From assembly GCA_017506735.1 (NCBI GenBank), contig JAFVMW010000080.1:1-39830 (forward strand): DNA of 39,830 nucleotides, in the 5' to 3' direction. Below, piece by piece: positions 8,213 through 39,830 of this stretch (its first letter is position 1; each line of letters opens with the position of its first letter). A program made the translations under genes and the position numbers. This stretch comes from Oscillospiraceae bacterium. Its GTDB lineage: Bacteria > Bacillota > Clostridia > Oscillospirales > Oscillospiraceae. The notes beneath the pieces are model-generated. The model ran no database searches and was not told the origin of the DNA. It worked only from the letters and a program-made list of their open reading frames with translations.

Positions 8213-8321
8213 ATATGTTCTCCCTTTCATTGGGTGGTCATTCTTTTGCAATTTATAGCATACCATAAATGCCCATAAGAAGCAAGGGCCAGTGTAAACT
8301 GTGAATTGATCGAAATTTTGT

Positions 8322-8345
8322 CCACAGCTTTGCGCAAAGCTGTGG
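8322..8345. repeat. CCACAG-TTGCGCAA-CTGTGG palindrome, copy 1
   Basis: CCACAGCTTTGC pairs perfectly with GCAAAGCTGTGG. With flanking bases each arm gives a DnaA-box-like nonamer: TTGTCCACA on the left and TGTGGATAT on the right. Confidence 0.85.
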
Positions 8346-8406
8346 ATATTTTTCACAAAACATCTACCTCCCGTAGGGGTCGGCGTCCCCATAAACTGCA
8401 ATTTCT

Positions 8407-8430
8407 CCACAGCCTTGCGCAAGGCTGTGG
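8407..8430. repeat. CCACAG-TTGCGCAA-CTGTGG palindrome, copy 2
   Basis: CCACAGCCTTGC pairs perfectly with GCAAGGCTGTGG; the left arm is preceded by TTCT, the right followed by AAAAG. Confidence 0.85.
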
Positions 8431-8445
8431 AAAAGTAAAGAAAAA

Positions 8446-8466
8446 CCTCCCAAAAAGGGAGGTTTT
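8446..8466 (-). terminator. Terminator of the Stn-like operon
   Basis: AACCTCCC/GGGAGGTT with a T-rich tail (TTTCTTTAC) on the minus strand, 16 bases after the last stop codon. Confidence 0.85.
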
Positions 8467-8482
8467 CCACAGTATGCACAGA

Positions 8483-23089: not shown

Positions 23090-23330
23090 TCCTTCTTTGT
23101 AAAAGATAAAGAAAATATATAAACAGAAAGAATAAGGGTAGTAGTAGCAGCAGTAGGGACAACTTATGTGGATAACTCCCAAAAGCCCTGCTGTCCCAAC
23201 GGTTTTTTCTCCACAGCCCCTGCTGTGGAAATCCAAAACTTATCCACAGGTTGGTGACGAAGCTGTGTGCAGAAAATTTGTCCACAGATTCCATCCCGTG
23301 GATTCCACAGCAGCCTGTGGATAAATTTCA
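23090..23330. other. Chromosomal replication origin oriC
   Basis: Between dnaA and dnaN. Perfect DnaA boxes TTATCCACA or its complement at 23167-23175, 23240-23248 and 23316-23324, plus TTGTCCACA at 23278-23286 and weaker ones. Read from dnaA to dnaN the order is boxes, a short GC-containing gap, a DnaA-trio (plus strand 23139-23156: TAGTAGTAGCAGCAGTAG) and an AT-rich stretch (23098-23135, with AAAATATATAAACAG). This is the basal unwinding system as in Bacillus subtilis. The origin has only the dnaA-dnaN half; no cluster is seen upstream of dnaA. Confidence 0.92.
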
Positions 23331-33216: not shown

Positions 33217-33459
33217 ATGTATCTGTCCATCGGCTCAGACCTTGCGGTCCGGGATTCCTCCATCATCGGCATCTTCGATCTGGACAACACCTCCACCTCC
33301 AGGCGCACCATGGAGTTCCTGGAAAAGGCGGAGCAGGAAGGCCAGATTGTCCCCTGCGACGACCTGCCCAAGTCCTTCATCCTCACCGCCGAGTACGGCA
33401 TCCCCCGGATCTATCTGACGGAATACTATTCCTCCACCCTGGAAAAAAGACTGAAATAA
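33217..33459 (+). CDS. remB: Extracellular matrix regulator RemB (YaaB/DUF370)
   Basis: 80 residues. MYLSIGSDLAVRDSSIIGIFDLDN matches the YaaB pattern MYIHLGGD...IVGIFD. The ATG lies two bases after the hisS stop, with GGAG in the hisS end. In Bacillus it sits between recF and gyrB; here that gap holds only a repeat. RemA/RemB are DNA-binding regulators of matrix genes. Confidence 0.88.
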   Translation: MYLSIGSDLAVRDSSIIGIFDLDNTSTSRRTMEFLEKAEQEGQIVPCDDLPKSFILTAEYGIPRIYLTEYYSSTLEKRLK

Positions 33460-36536: not shown

Positions 36537-37919
36537 TTAGCACTCAACGATGGTGTAGGTGACCTCGTTCTCTTCCTTCGCCTTGCGCTCTTCGAAGTAC
36601 TTCTCGGCCAGGCTGGGGAATGCGATGTAGGACAGAACATCCTCGTCGGACTTGGCGATGCCCTTCAGCTGCTCACGGGTGGGCTCGACGATGGGAGCCA
36701 GGGAGTCAGCGTAACGGGTGGTCAGGGGCTGCTCGTCGCCCAGGATCATCTTCTGGATGTCAGCGTTGATGGGAGCAGGAGTCTTGCCGTACTCGCCGCG
36801 GCAGTAAGCCTTGATCTCCTTGGAGACGGTCTTGTAGCGCTGGCCGTCCAGCACGTTGCGGACTGCCTGGACGCCGACCATCTGGGAGGTGGGAGTAACC
36901 AGAGGGGGATAGCCCATGTCGGCACGGACCTTGGGAGTCTCAGCCAGAGCCTCGTCAAAACGGTCCATGGCGTTCATCTGCTTCAGCTGGCTCATCAGGT
37001 TGGACAGCATACCGCCGGGAACCTGGTAGGTCAGGCACTGGGTGTCGGTGGCCATAGCCTTGGGCATCAGGGTGCCGTCGGCAACGAACTCATCCCGGAT
37101 GCCCTTGAAGAAGGTGGCCATCTTGGTGGTCATCTCGTCGTTCAGGTCAACCTCGTAGCCCAGCTGACGCAGAGCGTAGGCCAGAGTCTCGGTAGCAGGC
37201 TGGGAGGTACCGCCGGAGAAGGGGGAGATTGCGGTGTCGATGATGTCAACGCCTGCCTCAACAGCCTTCAGGTAGGTCATGAATGCCAGACCGGTGGTGG
37301 AGTGGGTGTGCAGGTCGATGGGCATATCCACGGCGTCCTTGATGGCGGAAACCATGTCATAAGCCTCCTGGGGACCCATGATGCCGGCCATGTCCTTGAT
37401 GCAGATGGTGGAAGCGCCCATTTCCTTCAGCTCCTTGACCATCTCCACGTACTTGGCGTGGGTGTGGACGGGGCTGGTGGTGTAGGAGATGGTGCCGGAA
37501 GCGATGGCGCCGGCCTTGGTGGTGGCCTCCATAGCGACCTTCAGGTTGCTCACGTCGTTCAGAGCGTCGAAGATACGGATCACGTCGATGCCGTTCTCCA
37601 CAGCCTTCTGGACGAACAGCTTCACGAAATCATCGGGATAGTGGGAGTAGCCCAGAACGTTCTGACCGCGCAGCAGCATCTGCAGCTTGGTGTTGGGCAT
37701 CTTGGCGCGGATCTTGCGCAGACGCTCCCAGGGATCTTCGTGCAGGTAGCGCAGGCAAACGTCGAAGGTAGCGCCGCCCCAGCACTCGGCTGCATAGAAA
37801 CCAGCCTTGTCGATGGTTTCCAGCATGGGTTCGAACTTGTCGAAGGGCAGTCGGGTTGCGATGAGGGACTGGTTTGCGTCACGCAGAACAGTCTCAACAA
37901 ACTGAACTTTTCTTGCCAT
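36537..37919 (-). CDS. oadA: Oxaloacetate decarboxylase alpha subunit (carboxyltransferase)
   Basis: 460 residues, the carboxyltransferase domain without biotin domain. Metal and catalytic motifs: VLRDANQSL (Asp), ECWGGATFD, MLLRGQN, TICIKDMAG (Lys), LHTHSTTG (His pair), and the PTSQMVGVQA block. Close to pyruvate carboxylase subunit B. Transfers CO2 from oxaloacetate to biotin on the BCCP. GGAGG nine bases before the ATG. First gene of the operon, with a long leader. Confidence 0.95.
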   Translation of the reverse strand: MARKVQFVETVLRDANQSLIATRLPFDKFEPMLETIDKAGFYAAECWGGATFDVCLRYLHEDPWERLRKIRAKMPNTKLQMLLRGQNVLGYSHYPDDFVKLFVQKAVENGIDVIRIFDALNDVSNLKVAMEATTKAGAIASGTISYTTSPVHTHAKYVEMVKELKEMGASTICIKDMAGIMGPQEAYDMVSAIKDAVDMPIDLHTHSTTGLAFMTYLKAVEAGVDIIDTAISPFSGGTSQPATETLAYALRQLGYEVDLNDEMTTKMATFFKGIRDEFVADGTLMPKAMATDTQCLTYQVPGGMLSNLMSQLKQMNAMDRFDEALAETPKVRADMGYPPLVTPTSQMVGVQAVRNVLDGQRYKTVSKEIKAYCRGEYGKTPAPINADIQKMILGDEQPLTTRYADSLAPIVEPTREQLKGIAKSDEDVLSYIAFPSLAEKYFEERKAKEENEVTYTIVEC

Positions 37920-38129
37920 TGAAAAAAACCTCCATAAAAAATAAAGTACGCTGACCGGCTCAGGGCTTCCGGCAAAAAAGCCCGTACCGGTAAATATTTT
38001 TACCAACTCGTAATTGCCAGGAAATGACAGTTGGTTAAAAAAGACGAGTAAAAACGGATAAATTTACCTGAAGCAACACAAAATATATCACAATTTGGGA
38101 AGTTCAGTGAAATAAACCCAATTTCCACC
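37920..38129 (-). promoter_or_regulatory. Structured leader of the oad operon
   Basis: About 210 bases from the predicted start. It can form CCAACT/AGTTGG, GGTAAA-AATA-TTTACC and CCGG...CCGG stems near the gene. No named riboswitch recognised. Confidence 0.4.
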
Positions 38130-38135
38130 AAATAA

Positions 38136-38164
38136 ATAGTATCATATGAAACGGTAAATGTAAA
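38136..38164 (-). promoter_or_regulatory. Promoter of the oad operon
   Basis: TTTACA, 17 bases, TACTAT on the minus strand. Confidence 0.75.
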
Positions 38165-38261
38165 TATCTTTTTATCGATATTTTCCGAAAAAAAAGAATC
38201 CCCCGGCCCACGTTTTATGGGCATTGTGCAAGGACTCAGCACAGCCGCCGGAGGGATTGAT

Positions 38262-38433
38262 CCATTGGAGTTTGGCGAGCCAAACTCCAATTTAGGTTAT
38301 CGGCTTTACACAGCTTTCGCCGTGACTGAGAGGGGATTTTCCCTCTTCGCCCCCTCCGGGGACACCTCTCCCAGAGGGAGAGGCAAGAAGAAGTATTTGA
38401 TTGCTTAATAAAGCCGATAACCTAAACTCCAAT
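38262..38433. repeat. MITE-like element with long inverted ends
   Basis: TTGGAGTTTGGC palindrome (38265-38288), then AATTTAGGTTATCGGCTTTA, inverted at the other end as TAAAGCCGATAACCTAAACT. Inside are CCCTCTTC... and a CCTCTCCCAGAGGGAGAGG palindrome. No gene. Confidence 0.75.
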
Positions 38434-38479
38434 TCGGCCTTTGAATCATATCACAGAGGGGCCATGAAAAAGAAAAAAA

Positions 38480-38513
38480 CGGGACGCCCTCCTGGAATCA
38501 GGAAGGCATCCCG
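38480..38513 (-). terminator. Terminator of the thioesterase transcript
   Basis: CGGGACGCCcTCCTG pairs with CAGGAaGGCaTCCCG; minus-strand tail TTTTTTTC. The DnaA-box cluster lies between it and the gene. Confidence 0.8.
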
Positions 38514-38531
38514 GCAATTTGTTTGGTTATC

Positions 38532-38747
38532 TGTGGAAAGAAGCCAGTTATCCACAGTTGGCCACAGGGTTATCCACAGGTGTGCAAAGACTTATCCACA
38601 TTGTACCAATGGGAAGTTGTCCACATTGTCCACAGGGTTGTCCACAGGCAAAAGGGTGCAAAACCGGCCCTGGGCCGGGGATTTCCCGGTATTCGCCGGT
38701 TTTCCACCTTCTTTGTCCACAAACCTGTGGACAAATAGTTATTCACA
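38532..38747. promoter_or_regulatory. Dense DnaA-box cluster away from oriC
   Basis: Perfect TTATCCACA at 38548, 38570 and 38592. One-mismatch TTGTCCACA at 38617, 38626, 38638 and 38713, the complement TGTGGACAA at 38726, and TTATTCACA at 38739. Nearly all point the same way. No DnaA-trio or AT-rich tract adjoins, so it looks like a titration or control locus (compare datA or Bacillus DnaA-box clusters) rather than an origin. Confidence 0.85.
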
Positions 38748-39489
38748 GGTAACGGGCCTTCACCGCGAATACCCGGCGGTCTTTTTCCACACCCCCGGTA
38801 CAGTCGGTGACAAAGCTGTTCACAAGCAGCTCCCCCTCCGGGGTGAAGCCGTGACTCAGACGAATCCGATCCCCTTCCAGGGCCTCGCTGAGATAGCACA
38901 CCGTCAGCTCAGTCAGGGGATGCTCCGCGTGGAAGGCGCTGGGCAGCAGATCCTGGACCCAGTCGGCGCAGTGGGTGTTGTTCATGTGACCGTTCCGGTC
39001 CAGCTCGGAGAAGGTGACGGTGCGCTCCCGGCAGCCCTCCAGAGGCTTCAGACCGATGGAGGCAGGCACCGGCAGCTCACAGCCCCGGGTCCAGCCGTCC
39101 AGGGATACGCCGCTCTTGCCCGGGGTCACCATGGAACGGTTTTCCACATCCATCAGAACCCACAGGCTGATGCACCGGAATACCTCCCGGCCCTGTGCGT
39201 CATAGGCCACGGTGTTTCTGGGATAGGCCACCCGGGTGGTAACGCCGGGCCAGGTCTCCAGGGTGATGGTTTCCCCTGCCATGGGCATCCGGGCGATCCG
39301 GATGTGGGTCCGGGTGATGGCGAAGAACAGCCCCTTCCGTGCCAGGGCGGTCCATTCCACCTCTGTGCCCAGACAGTGGCTGCCTGCCACCTCCTGCAGC
39401 ATCCCCAGCATAGCCCCGGGCTTCAACCGGCCAAACCGGTCGCAGTCCGTGCTTTTCAGATGAAATGATTCCTGATAGATTTTTTCCAT
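38743..39489 (-). CDS. Acyl-ACP thioesterase (FatA/FatB-like)
   Basis: 248 residues with two hot-dog folds. YQESFHLKSTDCDRFGRLKP, then the SELDRNGHMNNTHCADWVQD block with the catalytic Asn/His of the plant-type family. Releases fatty acids from acyl carrier protein. ATG at 39489, AAAGG upstream. Its stop codon lies inside the last DnaA box of the cluster. Confidence 0.9.
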   Translation of the reverse strand: MEKIYQESFHLKSTDCDRFGRLKPGAMLGMLQEVAGSHCLGTEVEWTALARKGLFFAITRTHIRIARMPMAGETITLETWPGVTTRVAYPRNTVAYDAQGREVFRCISLWVLMDVENRSMVTPGKSGVSLDGWTRGCELPVPASIGLKPLEGCRERTVTFSELDRNGHMNNTHCADWVQDLLPSAFHAEHPLTELTVCYLSEALEGDRIRLSHGFTPEGELLVNSFVTDCTGGVEKDRRVFAVKARYL

Positions 39490-39532
39490 AAATATATCCT
39501 TTCCAGGTGAGTGAATGTGTATTGACAGCCAA

Positions 39533-39780
39533 ATTGGAATTTGGCGGCGAGTCGCCGCTGACAATTCGTGCGCAGGTGCGTCGGAAATTGTAAGGCGAGT
39601 TGAATTTGTATCGGTATGATTGCCACCGGCAATCATTGGGATTCTGGATTCGCTGCGCGGAGCACCACGCTCGACAACAACATATCTGCAAATTGGAGTT
39701 TGTAGGGCAGTTTGGTATCACCCATTGTAGGGGTCGGCGTCCTCGACGACCCGTTCGGCAATCTCCGATTGCCGCCTCGT
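39533..39780. repeat. Composite repeat cluster, no gene
   Basis: AAATTGGAATTTGGCGGCG and AGTCGCCGCTGACAATTCG modules (39533-39577), then the 39594-39700 unit that is inverted at 14000-14106, then half of a GTAGGGG-type palindrome from 39727. Upstream of the thioesterase. Confidence 0.8.
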
Positions 39781-39795
39781 AACCACACCGTATTT

Positions 39796-39828
39796 CCCAA
39801 AATCCGCCCATCGAGGTCGGATTTTGGG
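39796..39828. terminator. Terminator-like hairpin at the window end
   Basis: CCCAAAATCCG pairs with CGGATTTTGGG; the next gene is outside the window. Confidence 0.6.
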
Positions 39829-39830
39829 TC

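Follow-up and report, generated by a model that had tools for sequence, protein, structure and literature searches.

Behind the acyl-ACP thioesterase gene of the window, by which we mean the whole analysed stretch of 39,830 nucleotides of Oscillospiraceae DNA (from an assembly 81% complete in 117 contigs), lies a dense array of predicted DnaA boxes whose core is a head-to-tail triple of fixed internal spacing. Judging from sequence comparisons, we consider it somewhat more likely than not that the array is an oriC-proximal DnaA-box cluster which would sequester, inactivate or otherwise modulate the DnaA predicted to bind there. Most of the related species looked at retain the exact geometry of the core, and the array therefore probably has a part in timing the start of chromosome replication. 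What limits initiation is less settled in Bacillota than in Escherichia coli; here it is the exact geometry of a cluster, beyond its number of boxes, that is kept through deep divergence, and natural absences, placements on both sides of oriC and sister copies supply material for comparison.

A box count over 38548-38747 returned three perfect TTATCCACA boxes and six boxes with one mismatch, eight of the nine in the same orientation (Table 1), exactly as a first-pass annotation of this DNA had described them. Over the whole window, boxes with no more than one mismatch number 35, whereas 100 dinucleotide shuffles averaged 6.03 (sd 2.37) and never exceeded 12; scaled to 200 bp the shuffled expectation is about 0.03 boxes, far below the nine seen. 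The same annotation had called the array richer than the dnaA-dnaN gap and had placed it some 15 kb from oriC, and both statements held (nine boxes versus five at 23167-23324; 15.3 kb). It had not named the fixed geometry of the boxes at 38617-38646, which are separated by 0 bp and then by 3 bp. In generalised form this core unit is TTNTCCACA-TTNTCCACA-NNN-TTNTCCACA, or TGTGGANAA-NNN-TGTGGANAA-TGTGGANAA when read in the thioesterase sense. The 400 nt behind the thioesterase stop contain eight TTNTCCACA boxes in the window as against one to five at the other core-bearing loci. Elsewhere in the window, five DnaA boxes with one mismatch each are grouped more loosely at 8318-8471, in mixed orientation.

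Table 1 Coordinates and strands of the features discussed, in window positions
Feature	Position	Strand	Remarks
oriC proper, five-box array in the dnaA-dnaN gap	23167..23324	.	boxes with at most one mismatch
dnaA	23488..24801	-	PF00308 E 1e-68, PF08299 E 2.4e-25
remB-like gene	33217..33459	+	NF046065 MtxRegRemB, 44 bits (cut-off 40)
Intrinsic terminator past the array	38480..38513	-	15-bp stem, T-rich tail; fold z -7.07
Three perfect TTATCCACA boxes	38548, 38570, 38592 (span 38548..38600)	+	22-bp steps; lengthen the array in this genome
One-mismatch boxes	38617, 38626, 38638, 38713, 38739	+	from the box count
Core triple TTGTCCACA-TTGTCCACA-GGG-TTGTCCACA, head-to-tail	38617..38646	+	exact match to TTNTCCACATTNTCCACANNNTTNTCCACA
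Stable hairpin between thioesterase stop and core triple	38647..38712	-	-33.5 kcal/mol, z -3.83, 0/200 shuffles as good
Inverted TTGTCCACA pair	38713..38734	.	immediately behind the thioesterase stop
One-mismatch box	38726	-	sole box of opposite orientation among the nine
TTATTCACA box, one mismatch	38739..38747	+	overlaps the thioesterase stop codon (38743-38745)
Acyl-ACP thioesterase gene	38743..39489	-	PF01643 E 4.8e-17, PF20791 E 8e-10; neighbour anchoring the array in the genus

The thioesterase protein is present in 90 of the 101 genomes of the genus, and the 400 nt behind its stop, or whatever part of them the contig contained, were read at 85 of these loci (those of G003, G023, G073, G076 and G110 were left out). 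Beside the gene the core is exact at 47 of the 85 loci and recognisable at 73 with at most three of its 24 fixed positions changed, mostly beginning 80-150 nt behind the stop, while the remaining 12 show nine or more mismatches in 24 and are clearly without it. Boxes in the sense of the core number 206 over the 85 loci versus 28 in the opposite sense. Spacers between the triple and the next motif are 0.34-0.41 identical, as against 0.27-0.30 when shuffled, and because this is only near the shuffled level we regard the spacing as kept while the sequence drifts. Recurrence of the cluster next to the thioesterase gene in relatives had been named as a check, and its core was thereby found in 73 of 85 congeneric loci. 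An earlier result to the contrary, in which strict TTRTCCACA triples with gaps of 0-30 matched four of 60 genomes, the window's own included, was overturned by the relaxed pattern because position 3 of the box is free.

The exact triple occurs in 71 of the 101 genus genomes. Within the order it is present in 52 of 394 genomes, which represent 24 of 168 genera and include four of the five sampled genus members, and outside the order in six of 373 genomes of the class. Reversed-pattern controls gave no match in the genus, order and class samples of 101, 394 and 391 genomes. The triple appears from these comparisons to be dispensable or movable, with 12 of the 85 loci lacking a near copy and 30 of the 101 genomes, many of the assemblies being incomplete, lacking an exact one. 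In G024 the array is missing from the thioesterase locus and stands by remB instead, with dnaA 7.8 kb off on the same contig.

Sister copies of the triple are found at other chromosomal places. Among 20 further triples of the genus, hand-picked from the exact-pattern list, 19 are situated ahead of rpsT at a distance of about 300-500 bp, and in 17 of these 19 the divergent sporulation sigma factor gene sigG begins 300-440 bp on the other side (S20 and SigG were identified by Pfam and NCBIfam); of the two exceptions, one has sigG displaced to 3.8 kb and the other had no sigG on the fetched piece. The window's own genome has such an rpsT-side copy (G000:C76:3363-3392, L082). The rpsT-side triple of G077 is at least 65 kb from dnaA (position 65 kb of a 323-kb contig without dnaA), and that of L081 is 8.4 kb from it. 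At 10 of the 19 rpsT-side loci (L069-L088 without L087) a TTCGACA/TTTCGAC sequence was noticed at +85 to +98, which we take to resemble a Spo0A box. Of 14 more triples that were fetched, 11 come from other genera of the family, and eight of the 11 lie just upstream of mnmE (MnmE by Pfam/NCBIfam); members of other families have triples behind tsaD, yifB and further genes, recognised by eye with one TsaD and one YifB confirmed by Pfam/NCBIfam. The tsaD-side triples are L156, L157, L166, L167, L170-L174 and L233, and the mnmE-side ones L225-L230, L234 and L235. As outlined in PMC4447404, mnmE/trmE and tsaD/gcp also flank two regions of Bacillus subtilis that bind DnaA strongly in vitro; the neighbours common to both may reflect either old positional conservation or repeated choice.

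The array shares with the DnaA-box clusters of B. subtilis (Okumura et al. 2012, as relayed by reviews; PMC4447404) its several boxes outside oriC and the existence of oriC-proximal members; its relatives have trmE/mnmE and gcp/tsaD neighbours in common with those clusters, one of which also lies between two 3' ends. It differs from the clusters, as these sources describe them, in the strict 0 bp plus 3 bp triple, in the thioesterase/remB and sigG-rpsT sites and in a second motif at fixed offset. As in the Bacillus type, boxes are clustered outside oriC beyond chance and close to it (all 19 loci read for distance; in G082 the distance is 55 kb). The first-pass annotation had proposed a titration or control site like those of Bacillus, and the retention of the core by the thioesterase gene at 73 of 85 loci, together with its nearness to oriC at 19 of 19, favours the proposal in part. 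Removal of six clusters in B. subtilis leads to early initiation, according to the relevant portions of PMC5295017 and PMC13220808, although reviews differ on the weight of these clusters and PMC5295017 doubts a large role. The comparison with E. coli datA, which had also been drawn, holds as a functional likeness only: datA is non-coding, its essential boxes all face one direction and it draws DnaA from oriC, as the present array would (PMC5742627, in the passages on datA), but it requires an IHF site and boxes 2, 3 and 7. DARS1 and DARS2 of E. coli likewise have a three-box core with equal spacing at both sites; there, however, box I opposes boxes II and III (PMC5742627, in its account of DARS), whereas all three core boxes here are co-oriented. 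Because datA boxes face one way and one DARS box opposes, the head-to-tail triple seems tailored to an ATP-DnaA oligomer. For E. coli DnaA in vivo, pairs of boxes with a gap of 2-3 bp are preferred, and binding becomes weaker when a base pair is inserted (PMC11317965, in the part concerned with box pairs); the 3-bp gap of the triple fits this preference, while the abutting 0-bp pair falls outside it. Among literature titles and abstract openings there was no description of the triple, of its thioesterase or sigG-rpsT sites, or of a composite of DnaA boxes with a XerD arm.

We propose that DnaA would bind the array in vivo, the head-to-tail triple with its 0-bp and 3-bp gaps being suited to a short cooperative DnaA oligomer. 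The array would be copied soon after initiation, and each new copy would take DnaA from oriC, probably ATP-DnaA, as same-direction arrays favour. Such a withdrawal would delay the next initiation, either by plain titration or by promoted inactivation of DnaA.

Unbiased 8-mer counts beside the triple revealed a partner motif, TTMTGTNAAC. Counted from the start of the triple in the thioesterase sense, it lies at +65 to +76 at 60 of 73 loci, where about 0.05 would be expected at the genome-wide rate, and at -110 to -100 at 33 of the 54 loci with room for it. Neither position is filled at 10 of the 73 loci, including the window (where the closest sequence at the expected place departs from the motif at three bases). 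The form TTATGTNAAC was found at 62 of the 73 loci with the triple versus none of the 12 without it. At the sigG-rpsT site the motif lies at +71 to +73 in the box sense in 14 of 19 loci; two others have it at +61 and +82, about one helical turn off, and three do not have it. The copy of the window's own genome is the one at +82. It lies at +71 in three of the eight mnmE-side loci, and in two other families it lies at +127 or +128 at nine loci, seven of them behind tsaD, with no match at those offsets at the tsaD-side loci L166, L167 and L233; on the yifB side (L160-L163) it has the opposite orientation, at +44 or +45. Since the offsets remain fixed across drifted spacers, we argue that the triple and its partner motif would form one nucleoprotein complex, and this makes a concrete and testable prediction, a second protein at the predicted DnaA sites.

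In its commonest form the motif agrees at all 10 bases with the XerD arm of some dif sites, the Bacillus dif having been compared in what we take to be its sequence. The motif as a whole matches the XerD arm of several dif sites in a table of PMC2731167. A first pattern search for dif matched none of 61 genus genomes; a second pattern matched 15 of the 61, its four perfect matches corresponding by eye to a coding stretch for Ser-Tyr-Asn-Gly-Thr-Tyr-Val-Asn, and neither search yielded a dif. The assignment of TTMTGTNAAC as a XerD site was set aside, the resemblance to the dif arm being real but no dif having been found by pattern in the 61 genomes. On contigs of G011, G018, G116 and G120, TTATGTNAAC occurs 47 times in 863 kb versus a mean of 3.3 for 2008 same-letter motifs, an excess of about 14-fold. 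Long ORFs contain 38 of the 47 matches, and 35 of these read in the sense direction, with all three frames represented. Against reversed controls the counts were 36 versus 2 in the window's own genome, 76 versus 6 in G035, 25 versus 1 in G171 and only 16 versus 8 in G272. Because G035 is rich in the motif without having an exact triple, the partner motif is not tied to the triple alone.

These observations allow a wider reading, to which we give some credence while thinking it less probable than its negation by a good way: the array may be one case of an order-wide composite element, in which a DnaA triple stands at a fixed, helically phased distance from TTMTGTNAAC sites of a second protein and forms with them a DnaA-oligomer/XerD-like complex. 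If so, such complexes would be placed at several chosen chromosomal sites, above all near oriC, would link the start of replication with the organisation or segregation of the chromosome and would, for the present genus, replace a missing dnaA-proximal origin half. The second motif is missing from the dnaA-near copy in the window and kept in the sigG-rpsT copy of the same genome.

The position of the array relative to oriC was read at 19 loci chosen for having the thioesterase gene and dnaA on one contig, an arrangement available in 29 genomes; the two genes are separated by no more than about 27 kb in 28 of them and by 55 kb in G082. In the window, dnaN and recF were confirmed by Pfam, and gyrB and gyrA were recognised by eye. 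At all 19 loci the distance between array and oriC falls within 2.9-21.4 kb, with the array on the dnaN side in eight and on the dnaA side in 11. Every dnaA-dnaN gap read holds three to six TTNTCCACA boxes of its own, and none of the 19 holds the core triple. On a 400-kb stretch of contig C15 of G011 the cumulative GC skew is lowest at 185 kb, next to dnaA at 186.5 kb, with the array at 200.1 kb; skew was informative in this one of four contigs, the three others being without a clear minimum. Because the dnaA-dnaN gap keeps its own boxes and the skew minimum of G011 is at dnaA, the array is, as far as these sequence features indicate, not oriC itself.

The first-pass annotation had also raised the possibility that an upstream origin half has been displaced to this place. 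As such a half (oriC1) of a bipartite origin, the array would loop to the dnaA-dnaN half and act directly in initiation. Like oriC1, the rpmH-dnaA half of clostridial bipartite origins, it is a box-rich region in the dnaA neighbourhood, and rpmH is the usual neighbour of oriC1. At three loci (G011, G120 and G077) rpmH does lie 2.5-2.9 kb from the array, but these are the only three of 19 with rpmH within 3 kb; for the other 16, a motif scan of the stretches read gave no rpmH, which in G018 is 92 kb distant. The 800 nt upstream of dnaA contain no TTNTCCACA box at 16 of the 19 loci and one or two at three, and with the looser TTWTNCACA none at 13 and one to four at six, as against the 9-19 putative boxes that the excerpted text of PMC7561715 gives, by a box criterion different from TTNTCCACA, for the clostridia studied there; this speaks for an upstream half having moved away. 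However, the array does not adjoin dnaA or occupy the rpmH-dnaA position, and there are sister copies well away from oriC. Because side and distance vary, a displaced origin half is not the best reading, and we judge it unlikely. Judged by these 19 loci, the genus has few or no boxes upstream of dnaA, unlike the bipartite origins reported for other clostridia.

DnaA-dependent gene regulation has been reported for sda in Bacillus, and the array could similarly be a regulator of genes, acting through the sigG-rpsT copy as its working site, the one by the thioesterase gene being minor. The placing of 19 of the 20 second-site triples ahead of rpsT, and of 17 also ahead of the divergent sigG, is what such a regulator would show, but the thioesterase copy stands behind its gene and is strictly kept all the same, which leaves this explanation with a rather small share of our confidence. 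That position makes regulation of the thioesterase gene itself improbable; oadA, which in the window starts some 600 bp beyond the array, could be affected. In G093, G064 and G018 the remB-like gene and the thioesterase gene converge, and the array occupies the space between their 3' ends. A Pfam search gave no match for the remB-like gene of the window.

The array could further be a roadblock or terminator, in which bound DnaA would stop polymerase leaving the thioesterase gene. The boxes behind the stop are strongly biased to one orientation (206 versus 28), and where relatives often have a terminator-like hairpin in place of the inverted TTGTCCACA pair, its arms are built from box halves, TCCACA/TGTGGA, which were seen in 30 of the 44 hairpins of this kind between stop and core. 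Those 44 hairpins, however, mean that at 44 of the 73 array-bearing loci transcription would already meet a terminator-like hairpin ahead of the core (the window is among the 29 without one by the same scan), and a sister site lies in a divergent promoter region, so that a roadblock seems very improbable. The first-pass annotation had located the boxes between the thioesterase stop and its terminator: a strong terminator does lie past all nine, running from 38513 to 38480, but the last box overlaps the stop codon, and a stable hairpin separates the stop from six of the nine. Its statement that the boxes are transcribed may apply here but is not general, because of this hairpin and of the terminator-like hairpins that precede the core in relatives.

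Chance or simple descent without function is scarcely credible. Common ancestry of the loci and a spacer identity somewhat higher than the shuffled value would fit it, but the boxes with their gaps and offsets have persisted through the drift of the spacers, and the reversed-pattern controls gave nothing. A second origin, regulation of the thioesterase gene and a mobile or CRISPR-like repeat were also considered and set aside, the array lying behind that gene and the repeats consisting of boxes only.

A search of 37900-39830 against Rfam with E up to 1 gave three matches below the gathering score (ghrelin-locus RNA, a microRNA and whalefall-1), which were taken as chance. The region had been described as having no AT-rich tract, which needs qualification, as an AT-rich stretch was recognised by eye at 37940-38190, about 360-610 bp from the array and upstream of oadA. 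Between that upstream region and the array, at 38200-38440, a repeat-like block with GC-rich hairpins and TTGGAGTTTGGC-like flanking ends was likewise noticed by eye, and letters resembling it recur near 39520-39700.
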